From positions 1 through 28,237 of IMG/VR virus record IMGVR_UViG_3300033064_003754: a stretch of 28,237 nucleotides of DNA; one strand, written 5' to 3'. Positions 2,879-18,800 of the stretch are shown one piece after another (the first letter of the stretch is position 1; the number at the start of each line of letters is the position of its first letter). The translations under genes and the position numbers were made by a program. Under the pieces are notes generated by a model. That model made no database searches and was not told the origin of the DNA. It saw only the letters and a list, made by a program, of their open reading frames with translations. Source of the stretch: a virus.

Positions 2879-3456
2879 CGTGGCCACCTGTCGACCGACT
2901 CGATCAGATGATACCGGGGGCTCGCGCGCCACGATTTGTAGTCCTTGGCCTCGCCGTAGATGTGCCGGCCGTCGATCAGGCTGGTGCCCGGCTCGCTGAC
3001 GTGCAGCCACGTCGAGATCGATCCGTCGGGGCGGCGGTTCTGTTCGTGGATCAACTGGCCGAAGGGGTTGCGGGCGTTGTCCTTCAACCACTCCCAAACG
3101 GCCCGGAGATCCACCCCCGGCACCTTGAAATCGACGGCTTGCAGGGTGGTGTGCTGCGATTTCGCGGTGTACGTGGTCGAGCCCTGGCGGTGCTTCTGCG
3201 TGGCCACGTCTACGCCGTACCACCCGCCGTCGATCTTCTCAGCGTAGCGGAAAGCGATCGTCACGTCCACGCGGCCGAACTCGCGGCGCACCGGCTGGAG
3301 AAAGTCGGTCACGAGACACTGCGCGCGCTCCACCATTACGGGAACGGTTCCGAGCTCGATCTGCCGCTCGAGCAGGTCGGCGCGCGCGGTCCGGACCATT
3401 TCCCAAAGGCTGAAATTGTCGGACAGCCGGACGCCGCGGAGATCGGCCTCGGTCAT
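2875..3456 (-). CDS. Endolysin-like peptidase, M15 family
   Basis: This 193-residue protein has the hallmarks of M15-type zinc peptidases that cut peptidoglycan cross-links. The N-terminus (LSDNFSLWEMVRTARADLLE) resembles the conserved lead-in of phage M15 proteins. The metal and catalytic signature is SQHTTLQAVDFKV with His102 and Asp109, and a second histidine lies in TWLHVSEP (His152). The family usually shows S-x-H-x3-G-x-A-x-D; here Gln replaces the Gly, a small departure. It has no signal peptide, so it should stay in the cytoplasm until the holin opens the membrane. The start is ATG at 3456, which overlaps the previous TGA; GTG at 3459 is possible. It opens the lysis region. Confidence 0.72.
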   Translation of the reverse strand: MTEADLRGVRLSDNFSLWEMVRTARADLLERQIELGTVPVMVERAQCLVTDFLQPVRREFGRVDVTIAFRYAEKIDGGWYGVDVATQKHRQGSTTYTAKSQHTTLQAVDFKVPGVDLRAVWEWLKDNARNPFGQLIHEQNRRPDGSISTWLHVSEPGTSLIDGRHIYGEAKDYKSWRASPRYHLIESVDRWPR

Positions 3457-3803
3457 CACGGGGTGCCGCCCTTCGGCTTCTTGTTCGGCTTGATCTTGCC
3501 CTGATCATCGGGGCGGTGCTCGATGGGGACGAAAAACCAGTGCCGGTATATGAGATCCTTGTACGTCTGCGGCAGCAATGCGGTGAACAGGGGGCCGCAG
3601 ATGGACCCGCCATCATCAATGACGCACGGGGCGCCGAGGTCGTCCGCTCCCAGCGTGGCATCCTCGCTGAATACCGCCACGCCTTCGGTGGTCTGGTACA
3701 CAGTCCCGTCGGCCAACTCGGCGATCTGCCACGTGTCCTGCTGGGCATTGGCCACAGAGGGGGCGAGGACGATGATCAGGGCGATCAGGGTTAGGCGTCG
3801 CAT
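3456..3803 (-). CDS. Small secreted protein of unknown function
   Basis: This is a 115-residue protein with a clear Sec signal peptide: basic MRR, hydrophobic LTLIALIIVLAP, and a VANA cleavage site after residue 20. The mature part is about 95 residues, has two Cys (CVIDDGGSIC) that could form a disulfide in the periplasm, and ends in a basic Pro/Lys/Gly tail. I do not recognise a domain. ATG at 3803 sits behind AGGAGG, one of the best ribosome binding sites in the window. It lies between another secreted protein and the endolysin. Possible roles are a periplasmic lysis accessory or a superinfection-exclusion factor, both inferred from location only. Confidence 0.7.
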   Translation of the reverse strand: MRRLTLIALIIVLAPSVANAQQDTWQIAELADGTVYQTTEGVAVFSEDATLGADDLGAPCVIDDGGSICGPLFTALLPQTYKDLIYRHWFFVPIEHRPDDQGKIKPNKKPKGGTP

Positions 3804-3812
3804 CGAAGCCTC

Positions 3813-5171
3813 CTAATATGCCAGGGTCATCCTGGATATCTGCATATTAACATTATCGTTCGCGTGGTCGGGGTCGACGAGAATCTGGAGATTCAGCGTG
3901 GCCGAGGGTTCAGTCCACGCCTTGCGTACCGCGAAATCCCACGTATCGGCGTCGCTCACTCCCGCGGTGTTGGCAATGACGCCACACCCGTTCGGGCTCC
4001 ACCAGATAGTGACCCTTTCCGCCGCGTCCGCCGCCCAATTCGTGTTTACCCCGTTGGATGTGTCCCCGCCATCGGTCCCGAGGTTGCGAACGACGAGTTT
4101 GTTCTCAGCGCCCGCAGTGTAGCGCCACATAAAATATACGTACTCGGCCAAGTCGATCGACCGCAGCAGCCACGTGGTTCGGGAGTCGGCGGTGCTGACG
4201 CTCGTTCCTGCGCCGTAAGTGAAATCGATGTTCGCGTTCCAGGAGATCCCGGTGAGTGCGGTAGGCGGAGCTGGCAGCGTAACCGCCTTGATGAACGCGC
4301 GCTCGCCGAGGTCGTCGGCGCCGTCCACCACGATATTCAGATTGCCGGCCCCGTCAGTCTCCCACGTGTCGTTGGCGTGGTAGCCGGTCAGCGTCCAGCC
4401 CTCGTAAGCCAAGCCGTCGGTGAAGTCATGGGCCGCGGAGAAGTCGGTGGCGATGAAGTCGACCAGCGCGGAAGACAGACCGGTGAAGTTCGAACCGTCG
4501 AAGGTGGGGGAGCTCCCCGAGGTCACGTCCTGATCGAGGTAGGTCAGCGCGGCGCCGGTGTCGCCCGTGTGCAGTGCCGTGCCGTCGGCCCCGTCGTCAA
4601 CGGTCGGATTTGGGAAAGTGCCCCCGAGTTGCCCCCCGGCCGCGTCGCCACTATGCAGGGCGGTCGCGTCGACCCCCTCCACCGTGGTCCATGCCCGGGC
4701 CCCGAGGGCCCCTGTGCACGCGGAAAGGTTGTCGGGGTTCGTCGGGTCGAAGGCAAACCACCCGGGCGCGTAGTCTTCCGGGTCGAGGCCAACCCCCACG
4801 GCCACCGGCAGAACGAAATCCTCGAGCACCGAAACCCGCAGGGCCCCCGAAACGCCACCGAGCCCTGGGCCGTCCACCACCACCGTGGCTTTTCCCGTGC
4901 CCGGATTCACGGTGTACGAGGCGATCATGAACCCGTCCACCCAATCCGAATCGCCCGCACTGGTCCGAATCGCGCGCACCGGCCTCCCTTGTCGGAAGGT
5001 GTCGGCGGTCTGGTTGTTGACGGGCACGGTGAACGAGGTAGAGCTCACCCACGAAATATCGTTGGTCGGCTCCATCCACGAAACCGGATCGGTCCCGGCG
5101 GCCTCGATGTGGTCGACTGGACCGATCAGGATGGACAGGGACAGGGCGAGCAGGAAAAGGAACCGGCGCAT
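3813..5171 (-). CDS. Signal-peptide-bearing protein with tail-fibre-like repeats and lectin-like end
   Basis: This 452-residue protein begins with a Sec signal peptide (MRRFLFLLALSLSILIGPVD, cleavage near residue 25). Residues about 30-150 are beta-rich. Residues about 165-230 carry motifs common in phage tail fibres: TALHSGDAAGGQLGGTFPNP, then a second TALHTGD copy and SSPTFDGSNFTGL. The C-terminal half (about 235-452) looks like one beta-sandwich domain with many Trp/Asp/Asn, reminiscent of LamG/concanavalin-like carbohydrate-binding modules. Tail fibres do not normally carry signal peptides, so export to the periplasm or cell surface is unexpected. It follows the glycan island by 20 bp, behind GGAGGCAACC. 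It may be a surface-displayed carbohydrate-binding protein, or a fibre whose first helix only mimics a signal. Confidence 0.72.
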   Translation of the reverse strand: MRRFLFLLALSLSILIGPVDHIEAAGTDPVSWMEPTNDISWVSSTSFTVPVNNQTADTFRQGRPVRAIRTSAGDSDWVDGFMIASYTVNPGTGKATVVVDGPGLGGVSGALRVSVLEDFVLPVAVGVGLDPEDYAPGWFAFDPTNPDNLSACTGALGARAWTTVEGVDATALHSGDAAGGQLGGTFPNPTVDDGADGTALHTGDTGAALTYLDQDVTSGSSPTFDGSNFTGLSSALVDFIATDFSAAHDFTDGLAYEGWTLTGYHANDTWETDGAGNLNIVVDGADDLGERAFIKAVTLPAPPTALTGISWNANIDFTYGAGTSVSTADSRTTWLLRSIDLAEYVYFMWRYTAGAENKLVVRNLGTDGGDTSNGVNTNWAADAAERVTIWWSPNGCGVIANTAGVSDADTWDFAVRKAWTEPSATLNLQILVDPDHANDNVNMQISRMTLAY

Positions 5172-5191: not shown

Positions 5192-6211
5192 CTACCCGTG
5201 CGCGCGGAGCCAATCAATCAAAGGTCGCGCGGCCACCTTCCACGAATGGGCCTCGGCCCACGCGTCGGCCCGTTGGCGGGCGATGTTGCGGCGCTGCAGG
5301 TAGTTCCGTCGGCACTCGATCAGGGCGTCGGCCACGGTTTCCGCGCGGATCGTGTGGACCTTCCCATCGGGAAAGCCGAACGTCGCCAACTGTTCGAACT
5401 CGCCGGACGGCGCCACGGTCACGGCCCGGCAATCGTTGGGCAGGTAGTCGGCCATCCCCGATCCGAGGGTGGCCACCACCGGGGTTCCGTGGGCCAGGGC
5501 CTCGGCCGCCACGATCCCGAACGCCTCGGCGCGGCTCGGCACGAGCACCACGTGCACGCCTCGGAACAGTTCGGAGAGCTCGCCGGGGTGGAGGTAGCTA
5601 TCAAGCAGGGTCACGTGGTCGGCGTCGTCGGCCCACTTCCTGGCGGCATCGCCGGCGCGCAGAACAAGGTCGATTCCCGCAATCCGGGTGGCCTCGATGG
5701 CGAGATCAACCCCTTTTCTGAGGTGGTGAGGCTCGACCCCGGGCTGGCCGCGGTCCGGCAGGGAAATGGTCAGGGCGGTAAAGCGAGCGGGCAACCCGGG
5801 CGGCGTGCACGGGTGCGGGGCGTCGATTCCGTGGGGAACCACGAACGCCTCGCAGCCCGTGGGCAGAACGTCACGAAACACCCGGGCGCACCACCGGCTC
5901 GGGAAATAGGCGGCGGTCAGGCGGCGACACAATTTCGCCCACCCGGCCGGCGCGGGCAGCGCGTCGGTTTGCAGCCCGGCGATCCGGTGCGGATGTACGA
6001 GCATGGGGGCGTCGCGCAGTTGGTGCGGGTAGCCGTGAAACCACCCAACCGGTGTGCGGGCGGTCCGGCCCATCGGGCCCCCTGCGATGATTCCGCGGCC
6101 CTCCACCTCGATCCCGGCGTTGGCCACCTGCTCGCGGAGACGATTGGCCACCGTGATTACCGAGCTGGCCCGGTCGTTTGCCATGTCGGCGTAGAGGGTG
6201 GCGGCTACCAC
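5192..6211 (-). CDS. GT4-type (GT-B fold) glycosyltransferase
   Basis: This 339-residue protein transfers a sugar from an activated donor to an acceptor that cannot be named. The GTG start at 6211 gives the usual first beta strand (VVAATLYADMANDRASSVIT). The C-terminal Rossmann half carries the GT4 signature RAEAFGIVAAEALAHGTPVV, with Glu229 and Glu237 in the EX7E spacing used for donor binding. HLRKGVDLAIEA near 163-174 is the usual K-G region. VVPHGID (about 124-130) is the typical hinge-region motif. It is slightly shorter than free-standing bacterial GT4 enzymes. The start overlaps the upstream hydrolase stop by 7 bp, so it is the last member of the translationally packed glycan island. 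Confidence 0.85.
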   Translation of the reverse strand: MVAATLYADMANDRASSVITVANRLREQVANAGIEVEGRGIIAGGPMGRTARTPVGWFHGYPHQLRDAPMLVHPHRIAGLQTDALPAPAGWAKLCRRLTAAYFPSRWCARVFRDVLPTGCEAFVVPHGIDAPHPCTPPGLPARFTALTISLPDRGQPGVEPHHLRKGVDLAIEATRIAGIDLVLRAGDAARKWADDADHVTLLDSYLHPGELSELFRGVHVVLVPSRAEAFGIVAAEALAHGTPVVATLGSGMADYLPNDCRAVTVAPSGEFEQLATFGFPDGKVHTIRAETVADALIECRRNYLQRRNIARQRADAWAEAHSWKVAARPLIDWLRAHG

Positions 6212-6876
6212 GTAATCACCTCGGCGAGGGTGCCCTCGTCCCGCATCCACTTCGCGGGCACGTGCCCCGAACAGGGCCAGCGGTGCCACGTCACTTCGGG
6301 GCCCGCGATCCGCTTGGCGTGGGCAACGTCGGCCGAATCCTGGCAGGTGTGGAGGTGGTAACGGGTTCGGCCGTTCCATTCGGAGAGATCCGGCACGATG
6401 TCGAGGTGGTCGGCTGGCAATCCCGCGGTCCAGACTTTCGCGAGGGCGGCGTCGAAACGGCCATCCATGCCCCGTAGGTGCTCACGGTCCACCGTGGTCT
6501 GCGGCCCGAAAGCGTGCACGGTGTCGGCCCGAAGGTAGTGCCCGGCCCGCAGGGCCATGAAACCGCCCGCGCTCGCCCCCACCACCACGATCCGTTCGGG
6601 TTGCAGCCGTTCGAGCTCCTCGGCCACGGCTTGCAGGGTCCGGTTGAGGGCCGGGTGGCCTTCGTCGTCGAGTAGATACCACGAAACCGACAGATCCCGG
6701 ACGAACACGCGGGTCCAGTCAAGGCCCTCGGTTGCTCGGTGGAATTCCATGGGGGCCATATTGATCCCATGGCACACCCCGCCGAAAGCGAGCAGGCACC
6801 GGCTCGGGTCGTCGCCGATCTCCGTGGTCAGATCGGGGGCCCACTTCGAGGTCAGGGGATTCGCCCACTCACTCAC
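6205..6876 (-). CDS. Alpha/beta hydrolase, possible glycan or lipid esterase
   Basis: This 223-residue protein has the alpha/beta hydrolase nucleophile elbow GASAGG in VVVGASAGGFMALRAG (Ser102). A likely acid is Asp180 or Asp183 in TCQDSADVAHA, and the histidine is His205 in CSGHVPAKW, in the right order and spacing. Membership of a small lipase/acyl-esterase-like group is probable; the substrate is unknown. Being surrounded by sugar-transfer genes, it might remove or move acyl groups on a glycan. The GTG start at 6876 overlaps the previous stop by 8 bp. Confidence 0.75.
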   Translation of the reverse strand: MSEWANPLTSKWAPDLTTEIGDDPSRCLLAFGGVCHGINMAPMEFHRATEGLDWTRVFVRDLSVSWYLLDDEGHPALNRTLQAVAEELERLQPERIVVVGASAGGFMALRAGHYLRADTVHAFGPQTTVDREHLRGMDGRFDAALAKVWTAGLPADHLDIVPDLSEWNGRTRYHLHTCQDSADVAHAKRIAGPEVTWHRWPCSGHVPAKWMRDEGTLAEVITW

Positions 6877-7183
6877 ACGGCACCATTACCACCACCACGG
6901 TCGCGCCGGTCTGTTCGGGGGGCGCCCCCCTCGGGGCCAGCGGCACGATCTTGAGGGGCCCCGGCTTGCTGATCTCGATGTTGACGGGCAGCCCGGCCAC
7001 CTGGAAATCCTCGGAGGCGATTTCCACCCGGATTAGTCCGTGGATCGTGGTCAGTACCATCCGAAAGCCCACGGGAACGTGCAGGGTAGGGAACTGGTCG
7101 CCCCGAATCCCCATGATCCGCACGATCGCGCCGTCGGTTTCGATCACGGTGTGGATCCACTGCTTCGGCGGTTCATTCGGCAT
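6869..7183 (-). CDS. Unknown small beta-rich protein in the glycan island
   Basis: I do not recognise this 104-residue protein. ATG at 7183 is preferred because AAGGGAAG lies just before it; a start at 7207 would add eight residues. The sequence alternates hydrophobic and polar residues (AIVRIMGIRGDQFPTLHVPV, then GLIRVEIASEDFQVAGLPVN), as in a beta sandwich, and ends with GATVVVVMVPCE. It has no signal peptide or membrane helix. It overlaps both neighbours (sulfotransferase-like and hydrolase), so it is made with them. A small virion decoration protein or an accessory subunit are possibilities without direct evidence. Confidence 0.65.
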   Translation of the reverse strand: MPNEPPKQWIHTVIETDGAIVRIMGIRGDQFPTLHVPVGFRMVLTTIHGLIRVEIASEDFQVAGLPVNIEISKPGPLKIVPLAPRGAPPEQTGATVVVVMVPCE

Positions 7184-8021
7184 CGGCTTCCCTTTCCACT
7201 TCGTCAACCATGGCCACGGCCTCGGCCCATTCGGCGTCGGTCAGTCGGATCGGTTCGGTGCCGTGACTCTCGCTTGAATTGATCCGGTGCTGGAAATGGA
7301 CCGCGATCGAGGATTCGACGGGCTCGATCCCGCAGTGGCGGTGCACCTTTTGCACCCCAAATCGTGTATTGAGGGTCTCGAGATCCACCCGCAGCACCCG
7401 ATCTCCCCATACTTCGACGGCCCTGGCGCCGATCCGCTGGATTTCGCGCCAATACCACAGTGCGAGGGCAGCGCGGCCCGGCCGGTGCTGCTCAATCGGC
7501 TCGCCGTGGTCGCCGTGGACGGCTTCCCACGTCGGCCACGGCACCACGGCCCACGGATGATCCGGGGTCATGGAGAAATGCAGGCCACTCGGAAACAGTG
7601 ACGGGAACCCGCCGTAGCGCAGGAGCGATTCGACGGTCGGCCGAGGGGGTCGAACAAGCCAAATGCACCGGAAATCGTCCACCCCGAGGGCCTCGAGTAG
7701 ATAGGGGTGGTCCGGATGTAGGCACGATTTACACCATACGTGCGAGGCGTCGCCCCAAATGGTGATGCTGTCGAATTGTCGGCCGAGGCTCCGGTGGGCG
7801 TCGAGGGTCTTCACGGCCGCCCACGCGAGGGCGTATTCCTCGAACGGCTCGCCACGATTGAGGCGTTCGAGCAAAAACGACGGCCTCGGCTCGTGTTCGT
7901 GCTGGATCATGGCGTTGGAGCATGAGCACAGCAGTTGGGAAAGGTAGGCCGTCCCGCACCGGCCGGTTGCCACTGTGAAAACGAACCGTTCCGGGATCCT
8001 TGGGGCTAGAATTGGCATCAT
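7173..8021 (-). CDS. Sulfotransferase-like protein (PAPS-type P-loop)
   Basis: This 282-residue protein opens with FVFTVATGRCGTAYLSQLL (about 13-31). This matches the 5'-phosphosulfate-binding loop of PAPS-dependent sulfotransferases, a P-loop-like TxRxGT/S motif after the first strand. A second region, CIWLVRPPRPTVESLLRYG, fits the 3'-phosphate-binding element with its Arg and Ser. Sulfotransferases of this fold move sulfate from PAPS to hydroxyls on sugars or other acceptors; here a glycan made by neighbouring enzymes would be the natural acceptor. The start is ATG at 8021, overlapping the previous TGA; ATG 8018 or TTG 8027 are alternatives. Some proteins with this loop are kinases or have lost activity, so substrate and activity are inferred. 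Confidence 0.7.
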   Translation of the reverse strand: MMPILAPRIPERFVFTVATGRCGTAYLSQLLCSCSNAMIQHEHEPRPSFLLERLNRGEPFEEYALAWAAVKTLDAHRSLGRQFDSITIWGDASHVWCKSCLHPDHPYLLEALGVDDFRCIWLVRPPRPTVESLLRYGGFPSLFPSGLHFSMTPDHPWAVVPWPTWEAVHGDHGEPIEQHRPGRAALALWYWREIQRIGARAVEVWGDRVLRVDLETLNTRFGVQKVHRHCGIEPVESSIAVHFQHRINSSESHGTEPIRLTDAEWAEAVAMVDEVEREADAE

Positions 8022-9271
8022 TTCCAATCGACTCCCACGAAGGTCGCCCGATCCGGGTGGCCCCCTGCGATGGCGCGGTCATGCTCGCCGCGGAGGTCCA
8101 CCTCGAACCGCCCCGGGTCGGCGATGAACGCCTCGTGGTAGAGCGGGTGGTGTGCGTGGTTGGCGGTATACGACGCGGGGGCCCCGTCGGCCCGGATCGG
8201 GGCGAACGGACAGGGATCGTGGTACAGCGAGCACCGGCCGGCCAGCCGGACAGCGCGATCCGGGTCCAGCCGCATTGCCGAGAAATCGACCGGGCAGGCC
8301 AATCCAACCTCGGGCACGTCGGCGGGTCGAACCGAGGTCGTTTCCTCGCAGTCCGGACACTCGAACACGTCGGCATCGTGCCGATCGTCGGGAACGTACC
8401 AGCAACAGCTCGGCCAAAGTCGTCCGAGCAACCGGCGGGGGAACGGCTCGGCGTTGGCGCGGTGCCGAGTGCCGGCCGCGATCTCTTTGTAGAGCAACGG
8501 GGCTAGCCCCGAGGTGCAATGCACCACCCCGGTGGGCACGTCCGGGTTCGTGTAGACGGCCACCGGCCCCTGTCGAAGCTGGATCGCCGTCAGATCGCGG
8601 TCGAGCACGAGCCGGTGGCCCGCGCGCATGAGTCGGAGGCTAAATTCGATGTCTTCCTGCCCCCGGCCGCCGTCGAATGCCAGATCGTACCCGTTGACGG
8701 CGTAGAAAGCGTCGGCGGTGAACCCGACATAGCCGTATCCGTGGATCGGCCACTTCTGCCCGGCCCAATCGGCCTGGGTCATGTTCGAAACGGCAAATCG
8801 CTTGCCATCGGGCGGCACCGCATGATCCCGCGCGTCTTTCGTGGCTGGGTTCTCTTCCCACTGATACCACGCGCACGGGAACAGGTTGTAGCCGCGCATC
8901 CACCGCCACAGACGGGCCACGAAATCGGGCGGAAACCGGGTGCCGTCGTCGAGGGTGAAGATCCACGGGGCCTCGGCGTGGATCACGGAGGCGTTCTTGT
9001 GCGCCGAAATCGCGCAGCAACCGCGCTCCGTCCACCACCCGCGGGCCTCGATGTGTTTGACGGGGAACGGCGCGCGCCGGTTCGTCCAGTAATCGGGGCG
9101 GGTGGCCCACTCGGTATCGGCGATCACGAGCTCAAACGGCGGAATTTCGCCGGTTTGGGCCTCGAGTGACTCGGCGAGCACGTCGAACAGGTGCCGATCG
9201 GGCTCCCCCGGGATCGAGTTGCTCGCCCGCGCGGTGTTCATGACGAGGGACAGTTCGGGGCGAGTTTTCAC
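8018..9271 (-). CDS. GT2-type glycosyltransferase with Cys-rich C-terminal extension
   Basis: This 417-residue protein carries a GT-A type domain. TLDDGTRFPPDF (LDD at 107-109) is the metal/nucleotide-sugar-binding DXD equivalent, and GYDLAFDGGRGQEDIEFSLR (Glu206-Asp207) is the usual catalytic-base region. It is a paralogue of the next upstream gene: WW-ERG, AISA-KN, LDD, PDF and the NGYD-FDG-ED block align in order. The C-terminal part (about 290-417) is extra. It holds CPDC and further Cys (CCWYVPDD, LACPVDF, GRCSLYHDPC), which could bind zinc or an iron-sulfur cluster, or make disulfides. GTG at 9271 overlaps the previous stop in a GTGA. Donor and acceptor cannot be read from sequence. Confidence 0.8.
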   Translation of the reverse strand: MKTRPELSLVMNTARASNSIPGEPDRHLFDVLAESLEAQTGEIPPFELVIADTEWATRPDYWTNRRAPFPVKHIEARGWWTERGCCAISAHKNASVIHAEAPWIFTLDDGTRFPPDFVARLWRWMRGYNLFPCAWYQWEENPATKDARDHAVPPDGKRFAVSNMTQADWAGQKWPIHGYGYVGFTADAFYAVNGYDLAFDGGRGQEDIEFSLRLMRAGHRLVLDRDLTAIQLRQGPVAVYTNPDVPTGVVHCTSGLAPLLYKEIAAGTRHRANAEPFPRRLLGRLWPSCCWYVPDDRHDADVFECPDCEETTSVRPADVPEVGLACPVDFSAMRLDPDRAVRLAGRCSLYHDPCPFAPIRADGAPASYTANHAHHPLYHEAFIADPGRFEVDLRGEHDRAIAGGHPDRATFVGVDWK

Positions 9272-10332
9272 AGGGCGGCCCTTCGCCGAAACACCCCACG
9301 CGGCTTCGGAATCACGTCGGATCGGCCCTCGGCGCGGCGGCGGTCCCTCCACCGCTCGGTGAGGTCGAACACCGGCAACCATCCGCGGGAGTCGCTCCAG
9401 TTAGGATCGCTGGCGATCCACGTCCCCGAGTCGGGGTCGCCCGCGATCCGCTGCCAGTTGCATTCCCGCCCGGACATTTCGCACCCGCCGCTGGGAAGGT
9501 AGAACGCGCACGGCGGCCCGAATTGCCCCCACTCGTCGTCGGTGTACCCCCGCCGGTTGGCCACGATCCGCGAGCGGCCGGATCGCTGTTCGACGATCGC
9601 CTTGTGCACCCCGTTGCAACGAATATCCCGCGGAGCTCCGGGCCGGGCCACGTTGCCGGGCCCCTTGTAGGCCCTCTCGGCGATGTGGCCGTGGCAATGC
9701 TCCACCACGCGCAGGGGGAGGTGGGTTCGATACTGGCGGCCAAGCAGGCGCATCCGGGCGGAAAAGTCGGCATCCTCCAGGCACTTGGCGCCGTCGAACC
9801 CCTCGTCGTACCCGTTGATCGCGAGGGCATCGGACAGGGCGAAAGTCGAATAGCCGTAGGCCCCCTCGGGGAATCCGTAAGTGTTCACCATCCCGGCCTC
9901 GCGGCCGGCGCTGGCCTTGAAAACACCGGCCTCGTGGTAGTGCAGGATCGCCGTTGCGATGCACCCGCGTTCGTAGGCTCGCCAACACAGGCCGAGGAAA
10001 TCGGGCCCGAATTCGCAACAGTCGTCGAGCTGGATCACGAGCTCGCCGTCGGCGTGCACGATCCCGTGGTTCTTCGGGGCACTGATCGCGGTGTAGCCAC
10101 GTTCCCACCACGGCGAGGCGGGAAACGGGATCCACTTCAACATGGGGAACCCTTCGAGGGTCCACCGGCGATCGGGGTGCAAGGCGTCGATCACCACCAC
10201 GTGGAAGTCGCGGAACGTCTGGCGCTGGAGGCTCTCGAGGAACGGCGCAAACTGCCAATCATCCGGCCGCCCCACCATGGGGAAGTCGCCGCGGGCGGTG
10301 TGGTAGATGACTGTGATCCGCGGGTCTTTCAT
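9268..10332 (-). CDS. GT2-type glycosyltransferase
   Basis: This 354-residue protein has a GT-A fold. The first strand is PRITVIYHTARGDFPM; ISAPKNHGIVHADGELVIQL leads to LDD at 102-104 (metal and sugar-nucleotide binding). ALAINGYDEGFDGAKCLEDA gives the acidic Glu186-Asp187 expected for the catalytic base. A C-terminal segment with two Cys (GGCEMSGREC) and many Trp follows and may be an acceptor-binding extension. It is paralogous to its neighbour at 8018-9271. ATG at 10332 overlaps the previous gene's stop in an ATGA. Reading the pair as a tandem duplication followed by divergence fits their shared order of motifs. Substrate unknown. Confidence 0.82.
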   Translation of the reverse strand: MKDPRITVIYHTARGDFPMVGRPDDWQFAPFLESLQRQTFRDFHVVVIDALHPDRRWTLEGFPMLKWIPFPASPWWERGYTAISAPKNHGIVHADGELVIQLDDCCEFGPDFLGLCWRAYERGCIATAILHYHEAGVFKASAGREAGMVNTYGFPEGAYGYSTFALSDALAINGYDEGFDGAKCLEDADFSARMRLLGRQYRTHLPLRVVEHCHGHIAERAYKGPGNVARPGAPRDIRCNGVHKAIVEQRSGRSRIVANRRGYTDDEWGQFGPPCAFYLPSGGCEMSGRECNWQRIAGDPDSGTWIASDPNWSDSRGWLPVFDLTERWRDRRRAEGRSDVIPKPRGVFRRRAAL

Positions 10333-10925
10333 TCCTCGGCCGTTGGCCCCTTGGCGATCTCGTCGTACAGCTCGGTGGGGATCCGGCCGCGTTCGGCCTG
10401 TACCCTCGCGTCGGCTGGATGGATTGCCTTGCCGAGATCCTTCCCTCTGAACACCTTGCCGTTGAGACCCTCGTAAAGCGGGCTCGCCCGGTGCACGAGC
10501 AACACCACCACCGCGGCGCCGGTTTCGGGGTGTTCCTCGGTTGCGGCCTCCACCTCGCGCAGCGAGACCCCCTGGACAAGGAACGACGACAGGGTGCGCC
10601 GTGGCAATGCCTGGACCGCCATCCATTGCTTGTGGTCGGCGTGCATTTTCTTGAGCTCGGCGGCCATCTCCTCGCCGCCTTCGATCGCTGGCAGGGCCCG
10701 CTCGATCAAAAATCCGATGATCAGCCCGAGGGTGGATTCGGCGGTCTGGATCCGGTGGCCTTGGACCTTGACCACGCCGCCGAGACCCTGGGTTGCCTGC
10801 ATCGCGGCCGCTGCCAGTTGCCCGGCTTGATCGGCCATCTTGAAGGCTTCCACCGCAGGATCGCGGGGATTGCTGACGGACAACGGGCCACCCCGCTGCA
10901 GCCGCTTGGTCAATTCATCGGACAT
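10329..10925 (-). CDS. Unknown helical protein in the glycan island
   Basis: I do not recognise this 198-residue protein. ATG at 10925 follows GGAGGTTCGAAC and overlaps the methyltransferase end by 11 bp. Residues about 23-60 are Ala/Gln-rich helix (FKMADQAGQLAAAAMQATQG), followed by more helix (MAAELKKMHADHKQWMAVQA). A beta-like stretch, GAAVVVLLVHRASPLYEGL, sits near 136-154, and the end is charged (IPTELYDEIAKGPTAEE). It has no signal peptide, Cys motif or known catalytic pattern. The stretch around 65-80 (STLGLIIGFLIERALPAI) is mildly hydrophobic but too polar at the ends to call a membrane helix. It may be structural or a scaffold for the neighbouring enzymes. Confidence 0.65.
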   Translation of the reverse strand: MSDELTKRLQRGGPLSVSNPRDPAVEAFKMADQAGQLAAAAMQATQGLGGVVKVQGHRIQTAESTLGLIIGFLIERALPAIEGGEEMAAELKKMHADHKQWMAVQALPRRTLSSFLVQGVSLREVEAATEEHPETGAAVVVLLVHRASPLYEGLNGKVFRGKDLGKAIHPADARVQAERGRIPTELYDEIAKGPTAEE

Positions 10926-11622
10926 GTTCGAACCTCCACAACCGCACCGAAGCGGTTACCCCGGCAATTTCCTCGGGCGTCGCGGCCGATGCCCAATGGG
11001 GCGGCGGCTCGTTCCACGCCTCCCCGGTGATCTCCAGCCCTGACCGGCTGGCCATCTCCCGCAGGATGTAGGGAAAGATCGGCGTGATATGGCCGAGGCC
11101 ATCCTCGCCGAATTCGTCGGGGAACCACCGGAGCTGGCCCGACTGCCGGAACCCGTCCCGGGCGTGGGCGCTGGAAACGTCCGGGGTAGAAATCACGGCC
11201 ACGCCACCGGGGGCCAGTAGCATGGCGATCGTTCGAAGCAACCGCCACGGGTTCTCGATGTGCTCGATCACCTCGAGCCCGATCACCACGTCGAACAGCC
11301 GCGGGCCGTCGGGCCAGCCGTTGCGATCCCACTTGTCAAGGTTGGCCTCGATGTGCTCGTCGCGCCACAGTTCGGGCTGGTCGTCGTTTTCCGGCTCCCC
11401 GGCCCGGTCCACGGTCACTTTCAAGGCCCGGCCGTGGATGTAGGACGGGCCACCGGCCACCCACGGCCATGGATGCTGGCCACAACCGAGGTCGAGGATC
11501 TTGGCGGCGCCGAACGGTAGCGAATCGATCACGCTTCGATCCTCGAACGGATCCGGGAGGAAATCGAGGCCGAGGGCCAGCCGCAGGGCGGCCTCGTGCG
11601 TGCCGATGGCGTGCCCGGTCAC
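10915..11622 (-). CDS. Class I SAM-dependent methyltransferase
   Basis: This 235-residue protein has SAM-binding motif I in AAKILDLGCGQHPWPW (LDLGCG at 43-48), an acidic strand-2 end (KVTVDRAG), and the post-motif FDVVIGLEVIEHIENP with the HIE signature of Methyltransf_11/23-type enzymes. APGGVAVISTPD is motif III. Such enzymes methylate small molecules, sugars, quinones or lipids; the island context favours a sugar or glycan hydroxyl. GTG at 11622 overlaps the upstream methyltransferase stop in a GTGA. It is not clearly a copy of that neighbour beyond the shared fold. Confidence 0.85.
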   Translation of the reverse strand: MTGHAIGTHEAALRLALGLDFLPDPFEDRSVIDSLPFGAAKILDLGCGQHPWPWVAGGPSYIHGRALKVTVDRAGEPENDDQPELWRDEHIEANLDKWDRNGWPDGPRLFDVVIGLEVIEHIENPWRLLRTIAMLLAPGGVAVISTPDVSSAHARDGFRQSGQLRWFPDEFGEDGLGHITPIFPYILREMASRSGLEITGEAWNEPPPHWASAATPEEIAGVTASVRLWRFEHVR

Positions 11623-12587
11623 CGCTTCGCCTTCCGCTTGCGGCCTTTGCGCTTCGGGCCGTCGCACAAGAACAGGAACCGCGGGCCCCAGCTGGCCACC
11701 TGATCGACCAACCCGCCCGGGAACTTGTAGGGGTTGCCCCCTTCGGGGTGGACCGTCGAGGGGGCCATGCCATAGCAGAACCCGGGCCGCTCGCGGCGGG
11801 CCTGCTCGAAACGGTGCATGGCATCCCACCGCACGTGGAACCCGGCCGCGGCCAGCTGCTCGGCCCACCACGAATGGGGGCGGATGGTCACGTGCCCGGA
11901 AACGGCCTGCCACTCGCGTTCGGGCGGAACGTCCACGGCGCCGAGCTGCTCCACCCACTCGATCAGCTTCCCGCGGTCGTCGAGGTGCGGCTCGCCGGCC
12001 CACGGGCCCTTTTCCGCGCTCCATTCCTCGGCCGGCGCGGTCGGATTCGAGGTGCACACCACGAAAGCGGCCCGGCCGCCCCTGCATACCTCGGCCAATC
12101 GGTCCACCACGGCGGGCACGTCCACCTCGAACACGTGCTCGAGGAAATCGAACGCGGTAACGAGGGCGAACGACTCCGGCCAATCGGCGGGCAGCGGATC
12201 CGCGGCGAAATCGCCGCAGTGCAACCGCCCGTCGAGCTCCGGCCGGAGGGGGTTGGCCGTCGCCCATTCGGAAATGTCGACCCCGTGCACGTCGGCGATC
12301 CCGGCGTCGAGCAGGTGCACAAGCCACACCCCGGTCGAGCACGCCACGTCGAGGGCAGGCCCGGCGAGGTTCATGGGGAAGGATTCGGCGATCATGGCGC
12401 GCACGTCGGCAAACCCGCCCCACCCGTCGGCGCTGGTCCCCTGGTATTCGCACATGCGGTTGTGAAACTGCCGCCGCTGCTCGGCGGGCAGGTCACGCCA
12501 CCGCGGGTAGTCCATGCCCGGGGGCCAGTACCGGCGGCGGTGGCCTTTTTCGTAGTTTCCGGGGTCGTTGTAAATGGTATCACCCAT
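11619..12587 (-). CDS. SAM-dependent methyltransferase with extra N-terminal segment
   Basis: This 322-residue protein starts at ATG 12587 behind AAGGAAG. Residues 1-70 are a Tyr/Arg/Trp-rich segment (MGDTIYNDPGNYEKGHRRRY) seen before the Rossmann part in many glycan-cluster methyltransferases. Motif I is ALDVACSTGVWLVHLLDAG (78-96), with Asp104 ending strand 2 (GVDISEW). The CGDFAAD and VTAFDFLEHV motifs follow, as in class I enzymes. The C-terminus is basic (KRKGRKRKAKR), which could help bind nucleic acid or anionic glycan. It overlaps the glycosyltransferase upstream by 8 bp. Acting on a sugar is inferred from context; I see no DNA methyltransferase DPPY/NPPY motif. Confidence 0.82.
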   Translation of the reverse strand: MGDTIYNDPGNYEKGHRRRYWPPGMDYPRWRDLPAEQRRQFHNRMCEYQGTSADGWGGFADVRAMIAESFPMNLAGPALDVACSTGVWLVHLLDAGIADVHGVDISEWATANPLRPELDGRLHCGDFAADPLPADWPESFALVTAFDFLEHVFEVDVPAVVDRLAEVCRGGRAAFVVCTSNPTAPAEEWSAEKGPWAGEPHLDDRGKLIEWVEQLGAVDVPPEREWQAVSGHVTIRPHSWWAEQLAAAGFHVRWDAMHRFEQARRERPGFCYGMAPSTVHPEGGNPYKFPGGLVDQVASWGPRFLFLCDGPKRKGRKRKAKR

Positions 12588-13731
12588 GGAGGCTTCCTTC
12601 GTACCACCACCCGAGGTCGGCGGCGATTTGTGACCATGTGGTGGCCCGGCAGTAGGCCCGGCCAGCGGCCGCGAGTTCGTGGCGGCGCGATTTCGACTGA
12701 TACAGCCGCAGGATCGCGGCTCGCAGCCCGGCGAGGTCGCCAAACGCGAACCCCTCGGCGGCGTGGGCCTCGATCATGTCGTGATGTAGCGGCACGGCCT
12801 CGGCGATCTGCGGGCAACCGTACATGGCCGGCAATCTCAGGCGGCCGCTGGCGCTGTAGGCCGTCCATTGCGAGCAATTCACGGCCACGTCGGCGGCGCC
12901 GTACCAATACGGCAAATCCTCGAACGGCACGAACCCCACGCGGATCTCGGTGTAGTCGGCGCACCCGAAATGGGCGATCGCGGCCTCGAGTTGCTCGATA
13001 TAGGCCCCCGAGGTGCCCCACCCACCGCCGGTTGCCCCTGCGATCGCGAAATAGATCCGATCCGGATCTATCTGGCCTTCCGAAACGAGGTCATAAACTG
13101 CGGTCAGGGTGGCTTCGAGTCGTTTCCCCGACCCGATGAACCCGAGGGTGAGCAGGATGAACCGATCGGCGGGCAGGTCGAGGTGCTCGCGGGCGATATT
13201 CCGCGGCGGAGTCAAGGCTGGCGCGGGCGCCCCATGGGGGATCACCCGCATCTGCTCCAGGGGGTATCGCCAATCGTCCCGAAGAACCGAGAATCCGGCC
13301 ACGGTATGCACCATCAAACGGGCCCCGGTCGTTCGAAGGAACGGCCATAGCCACGCAAGGTGCGAAACTCCCCGATCGGTGATCGTGTGCGGGGTCACGA
13401 ATAGGCCTGCGGCCTTTTTCGTGGCTTGGAGGAACCGGAACAGGTTGTTTCGTTCCGGAAATAGCCCGAATTCGTGCTGCAGGTGCACCACGTCGGGGGA
13501 AACGGCCCGGAACGTGTCGATCAACCGGGTAGGGGCGCGGTCGGTCCGGTGCCAGCAACGGTGAACGGCGATCCCGTCGAGGTCGACCTGGGTATCCTCG
13601 CGGATTTCGTCGGATTGCTCGGCCAGCACGACCACTTCGTGGCCGAGGTCGCGTAGGGCGGCGCCGAGGTTCTCCGAATAGGTGGCGATCCCGCAGGGCT
13701 GCTGCCACGTCGTGACAAGGGCGATCTTCAC
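12580..13731 (-). CDS. GT4-like (GT-B fold) glycosyltransferase without a clear EX7E motif
   Basis: This 383-residue protein starts at GTG 13731, in a GTGA overlap with the zinc-ribbon gene. The N-terminal half has the GT4 glycine loop (CGIATYSENLGAALRDLGHE) and PDVVHLQHEFGLF, near-diagnostic for GT4 members. The C-terminal half has MRVIPHGAPAP and LLTLGFIGSGKRLEATLTA (donor phosphate-binding G-x-K region). Where other GT4 enzymes have EX7E, this one reads NCSQWTAYSASGRLRLPAMY with no glutamate in place. Either it binds the donor differently or it has altered activity. The other GT4-type enzyme at 5192-6211 keeps the motif. It is the first enzyme gene of the island. Confidence 0.82.
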   Translation of the reverse strand: MKIALVTTWQQPCGIATYSENLGAALRDLGHEVVVLAEQSDEIREDTQVDLDGIAVHRCWHRTDRAPTRLIDTFRAVSPDVVHLQHEFGLFPERNNLFRFLQATKKAAGLFVTPHTITDRGVSHLAWLWPFLRTTGARLMVHTVAGFSVLRDDWRYPLEQMRVIPHGAPAPALTPPRNIAREHLDLPADRFILLTLGFIGSGKRLEATLTAVYDLVSEGQIDPDRIYFAIAGATGGGWGTSGAYIEQLEAAIAHFGCADYTEIRVGFVPFEDLPYWYGAADVAVNCSQWTAYSASGRLRLPAMYGCPQIAEAVPLHHDMIEAHAAEGFAFGDLAGLRAAILRLYQSKSRRHELAAAGRAYCRATTWSQIAADLGWWYEGSLHG

Positions 13732-14048
13732 GGGATCGGTTTCCAGCTGGGCAGCCCGACCCGGCCACTCCTGCATTTCGCGCACTCTTCGTCGTCCCCG
13801 CTGTCGAAGAAGTCGCAGTTGTAGCAAAACTGCGTGATTCCTGGGCCTTCGCGGCCATCGCCGGCCGGCACGGGCCGTTGGGATGTGTCGGCCGGGGCGC
13901 TGTGGCGCTGGCTATGGCGATCGAGGTGTTCGTCGAGGATTCGCCGGATCAACTCCGGCGCGCGCACGTCGAGGCGGGCGGCCTCGGCCACGATCCACGC
14001 CTCCTGGCGTGGGGTGAGGTTGAACATTCGGCGGAGGTATCGTGACAC
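13728..14048 (-). CDS. Small zinc-ribbon protein with ribbon-helix-helix-like N-terminus
   Basis: This 106-residue protein has two parts. Residues 8-44 (MFNLTPRQEAWIVAEAARLD, then ELIRRILDEHLD) resemble a ribbon-helix-helix or Arc-like DNA-binding fold. Residues 75-92 hold CYNC and CAKC (Cys75, 78, 89, 92; CX2C-X10-CX2C), a four-cysteine zinc ribbon. The two are joined by a flexible Ser/Pro/Gly linker. It is the first gene after the promoter-like sequence at 14058-14086, where a 9-mer is repeated, so it could be a regulator of its own unit. GTG at 14048 is very close to the predicted transcription start, so translation may be nearly leaderless; ATG at 14027 is an alternative. The RHH call is by pattern only. 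Confidence 0.68.
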   Translation of the reverse strand: MSRYLRRMFNLTPRQEAWIVAEAARLDVRAPELIRRILDEHLDRHSQRHSAPADTSQRPVPAGDGREGPGITQFCYNCDFFDSGDDEECAKCRSGRVGLPSWKPIP

Positions 14049-14094: not shown

Positions 14095-14658
14095 TTACCC
14101 GGCGTTCGGCTCGTGCGTATCCTCGGCCACGTCGAAGGTGAGGTTCAAGCCATCCCACGCGGGGGAAACCGTGATCCACGTCCCACGGACCGGATCGTAG
14201 TAGGTGAAAGCACGCTCCAGCACCGCCCGCTCGTCGGTCCGGAACCCTCGCCGGTCGATCGTGGTGCCTGTTCCGTGCTGCGGGCCCTCGGCCCCGGCCG
14301 GGTAGCTGCCCCAATAGGGGAACCCTGGGTACTGGTCCCCGCCGATGCCATAGCCGTAGTAGGCCGGGTACTGGCCCCCGGCCACGGTGATGTAGTCCAG
14401 GATCGCGAGCCGGTCGATCGAGGCGTGCCCGACCACGTTCAAGAGAACGTCGTCGTAGTCGCCGAAAATGGTCAGCGGGCCCTGGACGTTGTGGTAATCG
14501 TCGTCGTCGCTGCCGATGTCCACGCCGTCTTCGCGTACCTGCAACGCGGCGGCCTCTTCCCATATCGATCCGGTGCCGCGCAGAACGGCGTCGGCCGTCG
14601 GGGTGGGCAATCCGCCGCCGGCTTCGCCGGCCGGTGCGTCGATCCAGTCGATGGTCAT
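14095..14658 (-). CDS. Unknown virion-associated protein, Gly/Tyr-rich
   Basis: I do not recognise this 187-residue protein. Acidic N-terminal half (VREDGVDIGSDDDDYHNVQG) is followed by a Gly/Tyr/Pro stretch (GGQYPAYYGYGIGGDQYPGF) and a beta-rich end (YYDPVRGTWITVSPAWDGLN). It has no membrane helix or catalytic motif. ATG at 14658 overlaps the upstream gene in an ATGA. It closes the tail-region operon just before the gap with the promoter-like sequence, so it is most likely a minor virion or tail-fibre-associated protein. Aromatic/Gly-rich segments of this kind are often surface-exposed, but this is inference. Confidence 0.65.
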   Translation of the reverse strand: MTIDWIDAPAGEAGGGLPTPTADAVLRGTGSIWEEAAALQVREDGVDIGSDDDDYHNVQGPLTIFGDYDDVLLNVVGHASIDRLAILDYITVAGGQYPAYYGYGIGGDQYPGFPYWGSYPAGAEGPQHGTGTTIDRRGFRTDERAVLERAFTYYDPVRGTWITVSPAWDGLNLTFDVAEDTHEPNAG

Positions 14659-15863: not shown

Positions 15864-18800
15864 CTAGAAGAGACGGATCCAGTTCGCGCCGTCGCTGTGT
15901 AGAGCGGCGGTCGCCCATTGCACGGCAAGGGCCAGCGCCCCCCCGGCTCCGTTGATCGTCTCGGCCCCGTTCGGGGTGACGTTGTAGGCGTTGCCACTCG
16001 CGTCGATCTTGATGAAATAGAAGGTGCGGTTCGGCACCGTCGCGGCGGCCGGAAGATTGGCGGCGAAAGCACCCCCCACGGCGTTTCCTCGGTTCACAGG
16101 CACCACCACGCCGTGATTTGCGGCGTATGTTTTGCCGACCATTTCCTCGATGAGGGCCGTGGCGTCGCGGGTGCTGACTTCGAGCGTAAACGCGGAAAAC
16201 CAGATCCCGGCGTTCCCCGCGGGGTTGTTGTCGATCGTCGCCACCCAACGGGCATAGCGCGCGGTCGGGGGGATCTCGTCGGCGCCGCTCCCCGACCCCT
16301 TGATCGTGGCCTCGAGCGTGAACCCGGCGGCGTCGACCGAAACGGCAGGCACCTTGGCGCTGCAAACCGCGTAGCGAACCGCGATCGACTGCATCTGTTC
16401 GTCGAAATATTCAAGCCCGATCGAAAGGGTCGGCGCGCGGGCGAAAGTGTCGGTCCGGTAGGGGATCCGCGCGGAGTAGCGATTCTCCGGCATGATCGGG
16501 AAACACCCGTCCGGGTCGGTCCCCTGCAAGGTGCTAGTCAGGCTCGCGTTGGGAACGTCCACCTTGATCGTGTAGTGCCCGGCGCAGGAATTCTGAGCCG
16601 TCGTGTCGATGGACACCCCGGCGGCCTCGGCCTTCGTCCAACCCCACGGCAGGGGCTTGCTTTTGTCGATGTCGTCGAGCAGGGCGTTTGAGGCGAACCC
16701 GTCGCGGATCGCGTTCGGGGCGATCGCCCTGGTCGAACTCCGGCGGGTCTCGGGGATTCGGCCGCAGGCGGTCACCCCCGCGCCGTCAGTGAGAACCACC
16801 CCGACGCGGTGGCGGCCGGGTGCCACCATCGGCTCGCCGTTTCCGATGGCCACGGCGTTGTAATACAACACCCCGGCGGCGTCGATGTCGATGTAGGTGT
16901 CGCGGCTGGCGGTGAACGTGTGGCTTTCAGCCGTTCGGCGGGCGGTCCGCTTCCCAGCCACCACCGCGGTGCCAACGGCCACCACCTTGGAAAATCCTGC
17001 GCCGGTGGGCACGGCGAACCCGGATAGGGTGGCGTCACCCCATGATTCCGATCCGTGCAGGCTCAGCCGCTCCCACGGCTGCATGCCCTTCGTCCCGACG
17101 GCCCCACGGTCGGCGAGGTCGGTAACGGCGGTGATATTCGCGCCGTTGGTCCGGACCATGCACCAGGGGATATGGCTCGCCGGCGTCGCAGGCTGGGCCG
17201 CGTTATTGGCCACGGCCGAGTATGTCAACCGCCCGCGGGCCGTGCGCGATCCGCCGAGGAAAATGTACGTGTCCAGGTTGGCGCCGAAAATGTGGGAAAT
17301 CGTCGGCAGGCCCTTGTATTGCCCGTCGAGCATGTAGGAAATGCCCGGCAATACTTGGGCCAGTCCGGCGGCCACGATCGGGAGCTCGATCGTGATTACG
17401 GCGGCGTCCCACCCGAAATCGGTCCAGCGGTCCACCCACGCGTGGGCCAACCCGGCATTGATGATCGCATCGGAGCCGATCACCTGCTCAGGGCGGGGGG
17501 CAAACGCGGGGGAATCCTGACCCCGATGCAACCCGTGATCGTAGTAGGTCACGGCGATGGTTTCGTCGCGGCCTTGTAGTAATTTCCAGTTGATCCGCCA
17601 GTTGTCGAGGTCCAACTCCTTGCCGACGATCTGCCACTTCTGCGCGCCCGGATCTCCGTTGATTCCGAAGCAATGGATCCGGGTGGTGTCGAGGGTCACG
17701 AGGTCGGCCACCTGGACTTCGATCGAGCGCATGTTCGTGGTGAAATTCACCACGGCGCAGGTGTCGGAAAACCGCGCGAGCAACCCCTGCGCGAGATTGA
17801 ATATCGCGGTGCAGTCGTACCAGTGCAGCTCGCCGGCCGCGGCGTCGATGTCGTCTCCGGCCACCTTGGCCAGGGTGGCGAGGGTCACTTGGTGGTTGCT
17901 GGAATCCAGCGTGATCCCCGAGTAGGAATAGATCGCGTAGTCGGCGGCCTCGTCGTCGACCACGATCACGTAGCCTTTTCGACTCCCGCTGATCGCCTCG
18001 ACAACTCCACACACCCCTCCGATTCCGACGCCGACCCCGGGCCAGCCATAGCCCACCCGGCTGTCGTTCGCCGTGTTGTAGGTCACGCCGTCGTCGCCGT
18101 GTTCGTAGTCGGCATTGAGCACAACCGAATTGATCGTGTGGTCCCACGCGGCGTCGTTCGTGGCCATGACCCCGAACCACTGATCGTTGATTTCGAAGGT
18201 CTGGTGTGCTTCCTCGCTGCCGTCGGCTAGATACCCGTAATCTGCGAGCGTGCCGTCTTCCGACAGGGACATGCGGGCGAGGTACTGCTGTGTGCTTTCG
18301 CCGTCGCCGTCTTCCTGCTGGCTCCAGTGCGTGTTGATAACCACGGTCCCGACCACGTCTTCGATCCGGTTGTAGGCCTCGATCGTGGCCTTTTCGATGT
18401 CGATTCCTTCGGCGAAATCGTAGACAGCGGCGGCGCTATCGTCGTACAGGCTGAACGTCGCGCGGCCCCATTCGTCGAGGAACAACACGCCGTTGGTCAG
18501 GTAGGCCAGCCCCTTCGTAACGGCCCAAACAGGCTCGGAGTCGACGAGGCGGTTGTCCCTCGATGGGCACGCGAATTTCGCGCAGCGGTAGTGCGCGATC
18601 GCGTCGTTGGCGAGGTCGGTGAAATCGAGAGAATCGGAGTCGATGAACCGGGCGGGCAGGCCGGCCACGGTTTCGAGGGCCTCGGCGATGGCCTCGAGCG
18701 GATGCGCCGAGGTGCAGAACGCGGTGGTGTGGTTGGTCGTACAGGCCGATCCGGTCGATTCGTCCGAAGGAATCGACTCGTTCAACCGCCGGCCTACTGC

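Follow-up and report, generated by a model that had tools for sequence, protein, structure and literature searches.

The glycan genes of the tailed-virus fragment analyzed here (the window, 28,237 nucleotides) are, judged by their gene content and that of related loci, a recurring linked module, which is a new point. We propose that this module, with the glycosyltransferases GT4a, GT2, and GT4b and the methyltransferase MT1 as its core, has been exchanged between unrelated phages. With a probability of roughly one-half, the island in the window would attach a short oligosaccharide to a protein of the virion, with a tail appendage (or else the capsid) as the likeliest target.

Layout and gene content of the island

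The island comprises eleven genes on the minus strand (positions 5192 to 14048), as do all coordinates given below, and it is located between tail genes and a cassette with an M15 endolysin and holin-like genes. All 10 junctions within the island overlap, each by 4 to 11 nt, while the outer gaps flanking it are 46 and 20 nt. The upstream flank encodes an HK97-type capsid protein, a head-tail adaptor, and neck and tail proteins, and the downstream flank encodes the M15-type endolysin at the start of the lysis cassette (2875 to 3459; phrog_894, 5e-14; Peptidase_M15_3, 0.0013) and small membrane proteins. Next to the island on the lysis side, the gene at 3813 to 5171 encodes a protein with a signal peptide and the fibre-like sequence GGTFPNPTV. 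The protein at 1626 to 2108 has a lipobox and a C-terminal transmembrane segment. The sequence-only reading of this DNA had described an eleven-gene island between tail and lysis genes, and every one of its genes was present at the coordinates given there. From the layout, we infer a single translationally coupled operon that is co-transcribed late.

Four of the genes encode glycosyltransferases. GT4a (12580 to 13731) carries CGIATY and QHE motifs and matched Pfam Glyco_transf_4 (5e-11; alignment A5), and GT4b, the product of the last gene in the operon (5192 to 6211), matched GT4-conflict (4e-18), Pfam Glycos_transf_1 (3e-11), and phrog_2170 (1e-18), with a partial resemblance to MshA in an NCBIfam-type match far below the curated cutoff. 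Pfam GT2 matches were below threshold for both GT2a (9268 to 10332; 8e-4) and GT2b (8018 to 9271; 6e-5). These two are paralogues with 32% identity and the common motifs AISA.KN, LDD, NGYD..FDG, and ED, and GT2b has a C-terminal extension. Structure prediction, which the sequence-only reading had suggested as a check, gave a GT-A fold for GT2a (AF2 model; pTM, 0.78), with PDB matches to 6p61, WrtF, SpsA, TarP, and K4 chondroitin polymerase, the best having E values of about 1e-10, and the mycobacteriophage Che8 glycosyltransferase was among the BFVD matches of the model. The second D of the DD motif and the ED motif (D104, E186, and D187) were invariant in nine aligned sequences, as expected of a GT-A fold with an acidic metal-binding motif. 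The two GT4 and two GT2 enzymes of the earlier reading were supported by profiles. Additional NCBIfam matches of the glycosyltransferases, all below threshold, were to exopolysaccharide (EPS) and cell envelope glycosyltransferases.

The two SAM methyltransferases of the earlier reading were likewise supported by Methyltransf_23 matches: MT1 (11619 to 12587; 4e-9) belongs to a subfamily whose C terminus bears a GHV-x6-WW motif, and MT2 (10915 to 11622; 2e-16) additionally gave a UbiG-like match (7e-8) that is far below the curated cutoff. The only PADLOC match, mad2, arose through the methyltransferase domain, and the component set of a known defence system was not found, so a defence island was rejected. 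Deacylation is possible, given a weak match of the alpha/beta-hydrolase-like protein (6205 to 6876), which has a GASAGG nucleophile elbow, sub-threshold Pfam matches (0.0017 to 0.0035), and a match to the esterase/lipase family phrog_789 (4e-4). Proteins A (198 amino acids, 10329 to 10925) and B (104 amino acids, 6869 to 7183) had no meaningful family match in Pfam and other profile searches. The first gene of the operon (13728 to 14048) encodes a small protein with a zinc-ribbon-like CxxC...CxxC C terminus; the two CxxC pairs agree with the original zinc-ribbon call, but Pfam gave no meaningful match, and the product may be a regulator instead of a glycan enzyme.

The P-loop protein at 7173 to 8021 carries the motif ATGRCGTAYLSQLL, a 5'-phosphosulfate-binding loop, and the 3'-phosphate-binding motif CIWLVRPPRPTVESLLRYG. 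In alignment A7, TGRCGT, R126, and S134 were invariant, in keeping with the 5'-PSB loop and the 3'-PB R...S motif. Because its Sulfotransfer_3 score (14.1 bits; E value, 0.055) is under the curated cutoff of 27, we refer to it as sulfotransferase-like. Five phage relatives (L095, L096, L097, L099, and L102) were reached through the PAPS-site motif, and in a huge-phage contig the family is flanked by GT2-like genes on one side and by a UDP-galactopyranose-mutase-like gene on the other. The top two PDB sequences for a profile of the family alignment, with weak E values, were 4gox (0.0015) and the CurM sulfotransferase 4gbm (0.013), both polyketide sulfotransferase domains; the predicted structure of the protein itself was unusable (pLDDT, 37). 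A related island, in contig G005, encodes a Sulfotransfer_2 protein (6e-16) and an APS kinase for PAPS supply (4e-56), which supports sulfation. Taken by itself, the assignment of the window protein to the sulfotransferases is weak.

Linkage of the core genes in other genomes

Unrelated viral contigs, with a GC content of about 30 to 36%, carried linked homologues of GT4a, MT1, GT2, and GT4b, and identity between the window proteins and those of the other islands was only about 27 to 39%. In G002 and G005, which are contractile-tail viruses, the island starts right behind the tail-fibre genes, with GT4a first (L053, 3e-26, and L085, 3e-28, respectively) and GT4b last; structural homology between G002 and the window was not detectable. 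In G006 (L087), GT4-GT4a-MT1-GT2 have the major head protein (5e-62) on one side and tail genes on the other. The islands of all three uncultured viruses (that of G005 spanning L085 and L086) resemble the window in having GT4a, MT1, and GT2 in a single run beside tail-fibre or head and tail genes, with GT2 present in one to five copies and GT4b in G002 and G005. Unlike the window, the G002 island encodes a polysaccharide pyruvyl transferase and a nitroreductase, and that of G005 encodes the APS kinase and a different sulfotransferase family.

A scan of viral contigs with the MT1 motif GHV-x6-WW alone, in which the neighbors were not used, returned four strong homologues (L053, L066, L072, and L079), each adjoined by homologues of other island genes; the L066 and L079 contigs look near-identical there, and the scan therefore yielded three independent cases. 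Similarly, two hits of a GT2 motif scan were genuine homologues, and each of them had a GT4a homologue within 4 kb. The MT1 homologues in G002, G005, G006, and an archaeal MAG all have adjoining glycosyltransferase homologues. The archaeal locus (FK2.bin78, L003) contains a GT4, a GT4-MT1 fusion, and a GT2 in the same order as the window, but it lies among membrane-protein and cellular genes, with no virion genes on the stretch examined, and it adjoins multi-pass membrane proteins and other glycosyltransferases, as is typical of a surface-glycosylation locus. Its position among cellular glycosylation genes shows that these enzymes can also function in cell-surface glycosylation, a point that weighs against virion decoration. 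A partial archaeal GT2 match (G203), on a contig where no virion or other island gene was noticed, was set aside.

Searches of viral contigs and phage records with capsid, tail, and GT2a sequences gave no close relative of the window; a distant capsid match (25%) was found in Microcystis phage Mvi-JY20, which has no annotated glycan island on the stretch examined. The sequence-only reading had treated the genes as one set, which scattered, unlinked genes in relatives would contradict; this objection fails because the core homologues are linked in unrelated viral contigs, and the case for one glycan-building set is stronger for it. These results suggest a little-studied but widespread route by which viruses may coat themselves or their hosts with modified sugars.

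Acceptor and function of the glycan

No membrane segment was found by hydropathy in the 11 island proteins (maximum KD19, 1.62), and the island therefore has no flippase/polymerase route of its own; ligase and lipid-phosphate sugar transferase genes were also absent from it. Since membrane segments, flippase, and polymerase are lacking, soluble, late decoration of virion proteins seems the likeliest function. We infer the following reaction sequence, product, acceptor, and purpose. The soluble GT4 and GT2 enzymes would add sugars sequentially from host nucleotide-sugars in the cytoplasm, the two methyltransferases would add methyl caps to hydroxyls or carboxyls, the PAPS-dependent sulfotransferase would add sulfate, and the hydrolase would perhaps trim acyl groups. 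Islands differ in how many GT2 copies they have and in their enzymes for decoration (sulfotransferase with APS kinase, pyruvyl transferase, and nitroreductase). Just upstream of the island, a small Gly/Tyr-rich protein (14095 to 14658) is, by position and composition, probably a tail appendage protein and possibly the acceptor. Its similarity to the proteins upstream of GT4a in G002 and G005 was not above that of shuffled sequences. A more tentative extension is that a mobile GT4a-MT1-GT2-GT4b cassette, common to unrelated tailed viruses and akin to the archaeal surface-glycosylation locus, puts sulfated and methylated oligosaccharides on tail appendages, sometimes with a phage-encoded APS kinase making PAPS.

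Surface glycans linked to a lipid or polymer are, too, products of cytoplasmic glycosyltransferases, and TarP among the GT2a matches is a counterpoint to virion decoration. As the next likeliest function, the island could instead alter a glycan of the host envelope (LPS, capsule, S-layer, or a teichoic-like polymer) and thereby the receptors, leading to superinfection exclusion or preventing readsorption of progeny. The surface-glycan enzymes TarP, WrtF, SpsA, and K4CP among the structural matches, the sub-threshold NCBIfam matches, the neighbors of the archaeal copy, and the diderm host suggested by the lipobox protein at 1626 to 2108 would all fit such a role. We nevertheless consider it rather unlikely, as the island has neither membrane segments nor any of the four export and assembly functions named above, and it is embedded in a run of virion genes, whereas envelope remodelling would come late. 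Frequent moron insertion at tail-lysis junctions, together with the weak hydrolase and the proteins without a family, could also point to a chance collection of morons at a permissive spot, with no common pathway. This is improbable and already disfavored: every junction overlaps, the core set and its end positions (GT4a first and GT4b last) are kept across other tail types at 30 to 36% GC, and the linkage came from a neighbor-blind motif scan.

Two further products are very improbable. A small molecule or lipid bearing sugar or sulfate, in place of a macromolecular glycan, would agree with the similarity of MT2 to UbiG, the partial similarity of GT4b to MshA, and the polyketide sulfotransferase domains matched by the sulfotransferase profile, but the UbiG and MshA matches are far under their cutoffs, and the several GT2 copies and the polysaccharide pyruvyl transferase in relatives indicate oligo- or polysaccharide chemistry. 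Hypermodification of phage DNA with glycosylated bases, as protection against restriction, is the least probable of all. Some phage glycosyltransferases put diverse glycans on DNA (Pyle et al. 2024, as cited in PMC12619734), and a match to the thymidylate-synthase family (5e-17) occurs in G006. However, the window, G002, G005, and G007, all of them fragments, contained no thymidylate-synthase or hydroxymethylase match, Pfam and PADLOC revealed no base-modification partner in the island, and sulfation and pyruvylation genes and a fibre-gene neighborhood fit badly with DNA as the acceptor.

Comparison with known phage systems

Phage virion glycosylation has been described before, mostly in actinobacteriophages that are in culture and carry one or two glycosyltransferases. 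Immune evasion, named by the sequence-only reading, is a purpose known from mycobacteriophage work that may or may not apply to the window. The literature searched contained no operon-scale, sulfating form beside tail genes, and we know of no description of sulfated virion glycans for viruses of bacteria or archaea. In mycobacteriophages (Freeman et al. 2023, as cited in PMC12619734 and PMC13313380), glycans of the Che8 type are reported on capsid and tail-tube subunits, and a methyltransferase is mentioned as a glycosylation partner in related phages. The window resembles the Che8-type system in its phage-encoded glycosyltransferases, one of which has a model matched by the Che8 enzyme, and in that the enzymes are soluble by hydropathy and lack lipid-carrier export machinery. 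It differs in combining four glycosyltransferases, two methyltransferases, a sulfotransferase-like enzyme, and a hydrolase in one overlapping operon beside tail genes. None of the phage records searched contained the GT2/GT4a/MT1 set.

If virion decoration is correct, a transferable operon for several sugar transfers, methylation, and sulfation beside the virion genes of unrelated viruses would make elaborate virion glycans a general trait. The one to five GT2 copies would then be a natural series for testing gene content against glycan length, and the candidate sulfotransferases and PAPS-supply genes would allow a direct search for their acceptors.

The gtr seroconversion clusters (GtrA/GtrB/Gtr type) share phage-carried glycan modification with the window; seroconversion needs the membrane flippase GtrA and a multi-pass transferase, both of which are absent from the island. 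Streptomyces phages of the Stanwilliamsviridae (e.g., Moab gp19/gp20) carry paired GT4 genes homologous to GT4b (about 1e-4 to 1e-11), but they share this family only, and no GT2/MT1/sulfotransferase island was seen in them. The nearby Moab gp18 hydrolase was rejected as a counterpart of the window hydrolase, the sequences being unrelated. In these phages, a ribonucleotide reductase gene comes after the GT4 pair, and lysin and virion genes come next.

Layout and enzymes of the window island

Almost every real gene of the window, a 28,237-base record of the linear IMG/VR class, which often denotes a fragment, lies on the minus strand. The capsid protein (26659-28014, minus strand, Pfam Phage_capsid 4e-13) is followed by a head-tail adaptor, neck and tail genes, a probable tape measure (20234-22543, minus strand, judged from its size and the character of its sequence), a large tail protein (15864-19289, minus strand), three small proteins and the island, and beyond the island come two proteins with signal peptides, then an M15 endolysin and small membrane proteins. 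The sequence-only reading had described an eleven-gene glycan island between virion and lysis genes, and this was borne out: the genes are present at 5192-14048 and, with the most plausible start codon chosen for each, all 10 internal junctions overlap by 4 to 11 nt, with outer gaps of 46 and 20 nt. The island has the G+C content of the remaining window and thus is not, by composition, a fresh insertion. Hydropathy revealed no membrane segment in any of the 11 proteins.

Both GT4-type glycosyltransferases (GT4a, 12580-13731; GT4b, 5192-6211) and both methyltransferases (MT1, 11619-12587; MT2, 10915-11622) passed the Pfam cut-offs. GT2a (9268-10332) and GT2b (8018-9271) are mutual paralogues with subthreshold GT2 matches. 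The GT2a model (pTM 0.78, from an alignment of nine sequences) matched GT-A enzymes of the PDB with E values of about 1e-10 to 1e-8, including the Leptospira glycosyltransferase 6p61, WrtF, SpsA, TarP and K4 chondroitin polymerase. Alignment of the GT2 paralogues also led to a contig of an archaeal metagenome-assembled genome with consecutive genes for a GT4, a GT4-methyltransferase fusion and a GT2; this GT2 matched GT2a at 1e-34, and the methyltransferase matched MT1.

The signal-peptide proteins (3813-5171 and 3456-3803, minus strand) lie between island and endolysin, and the larger contains a fibre-like GGTFPNPTV sequence, unusual in an exported phage protein. A small protein at 1626-2108 (minus strand) is arranged like a unimolecular spanin, with a lipobox (WLAVGC) at the N terminus and a membrane segment at the C terminus, which suggests a diderm host.

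Linked homologues in other viruses

Direct searches of viral contigs and phage records returned no close relative of the window. When viral contigs were scanned with a degenerate GT2 motif (NGYDxxFDG), 2 of 48 stretches (L053 and L043) held real homologues, each with a GT4a homologue. L053 is the end of a 48-kb contig, G002, with 30% G+C; the virus has a contractile tail, and its structural genes do not resemble those of the window. Its island directly follows fibre genes and reads GT4a, pyruvyl transferase, methyltransferase, two GT2, nitroreductase, two GT2, methyltransferase, GT2, methyltransferase, MT1, GT4b. G002 also has a duplicated N-terminal module: two of its proteins (L059 10121-10873 and 11497-12102) share roughly their first 50 residues (VIDTRDIQDINLIRLGEILRKSKYIKRTGSSGSYKYWYRDKKTGKLVEGKK).

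Scanning with the MT1 motif alone (GHV-x6-WW) gave strong homologues in four stretches, all accompanied by homologues of other island genes. These represent three independent cases, G002, G006 and the pair G005 and G007, counted as one because the region looks almost identical in both. G006 has GT4-GT4a-MT1-GT2 between its major head protein and tail genes. The G005 island starts directly after fibre-like genes, as in G002, and ends with MT1-GT4b and a holin/hemolysin-like small protein. As G002 and G005 are mutually related, their GT4a and MT1 proteins being 53 to 55% identical, placement beside fibre genes in viruses other than the window's rests on one lineage; the linkage of island genes rests on more than one. 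That GT4a, MT1 and GT2 homologues stay linked across these viruses supports the earlier view of the island as one glycan set.

A GT2 match in G005 (C1:26992-28047) and G007 (C1:5380-6435) contains one internal TAA, which may reflect a match running past the gene end. In G006, four copies of a small homing-endonuclease-like family are scattered among head-region genes (L087 2028-2690, 4725-5462, 10061-10513 and 14727-15287).

Probable product and precedents

The gene content, the operon layout, the solubility of the proteins by hydropathy, the repeated linkage and the presence of sulfation genes in a related island are observed; we infer when the operon is expressed, which acceptor and sugars it uses, the order of its reactions and its purpose. 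Most likely, expression would coincide with that of the late genes, and the operon's soluble enzymes would act in the cytoplasm, assembling a short glycan on a virion protein and capping it. A serious rival is modification of the host envelope, since a lipid carrier and a flippase of the host could serve these enzymes; DNA hypermodification ranks as less likely.

Glycosyltransferases are frequent in actinobacteriophages. Virion glycosylation is established in mycobacteriophages (Freeman et al. 2023, as reported in PMC12619734 and PMC13313380). Among 50,697 deposited phage records, we found no counterpart of the window or G002/G005 island, and the matches were only to single enzyme families (glycosyltransferases, one pyruvyl-transferase match and APS kinases). 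The openly licensed papers searched yielded no description of a phage glycosyltransferase/methyltransferase/sulfotransferase island. A recurring, sulfating module linked to virion genes would be unexpected to a specialist.

Sulfate chemistry

The protein at 7173-8021 carries both expected nucleotide-binding motifs, with a Sulfotransfer_3 E value of only 0.055. Its P-loop motif, scanned over viral contigs, identified a phage family sharing both motifs, whose profile had polyketide-type sulfotransferase domains as its best two PDB sequences (E values of 0.0015 and 0.013). On this evidence the protein is called sulfotransferase-like, as a probable assignment. In the G005 island, a Sulfotransfer_2 protein (6e-16) is directly followed, with overlap, by an APS kinase (4e-56), which produces the sulfate donor PAPS. 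On a 430-kb contig, the window's sulfotransferase family has GT2-like genes on one side and, on the other, a UDP-galactopyranose-mutase-like gene, the latter named by eye.

More distant GT2 relatives sit among virion genes in viral contigs L004 to L008, followed, where the contig extends far enough, by a radical-SAM protein and then another GT2; the L005 and L007 islands also encode a PAPS-reductase-domain protein. This is a different, sulfur-linked modification island. Judged from these genes, those of G005 and the 430-kb contig, sulfate chemistry is a repeated companion of such islands.

In several of these contigs (e.g., L007 3954-8253), the order is GT2, radical SAM/SPASM, GT2, phosphatase/sulfatase-like protein, small membrane protein and PAPS-reductase-domain protein; L004 and L008 lack the last two. 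Seeming intein-like insertions occur in a virion protein of L006 (329-3469), without counterpart in its L007 homologue (926-2857), and in a head-gene-region protein of L004 (3307-6378). Several viral contigs that are unrelated to one another have lone sulfotransferase-like genes adjoining structural genes of the virion (L097 829-2148, L099 2-628 and L102 2160-2921).
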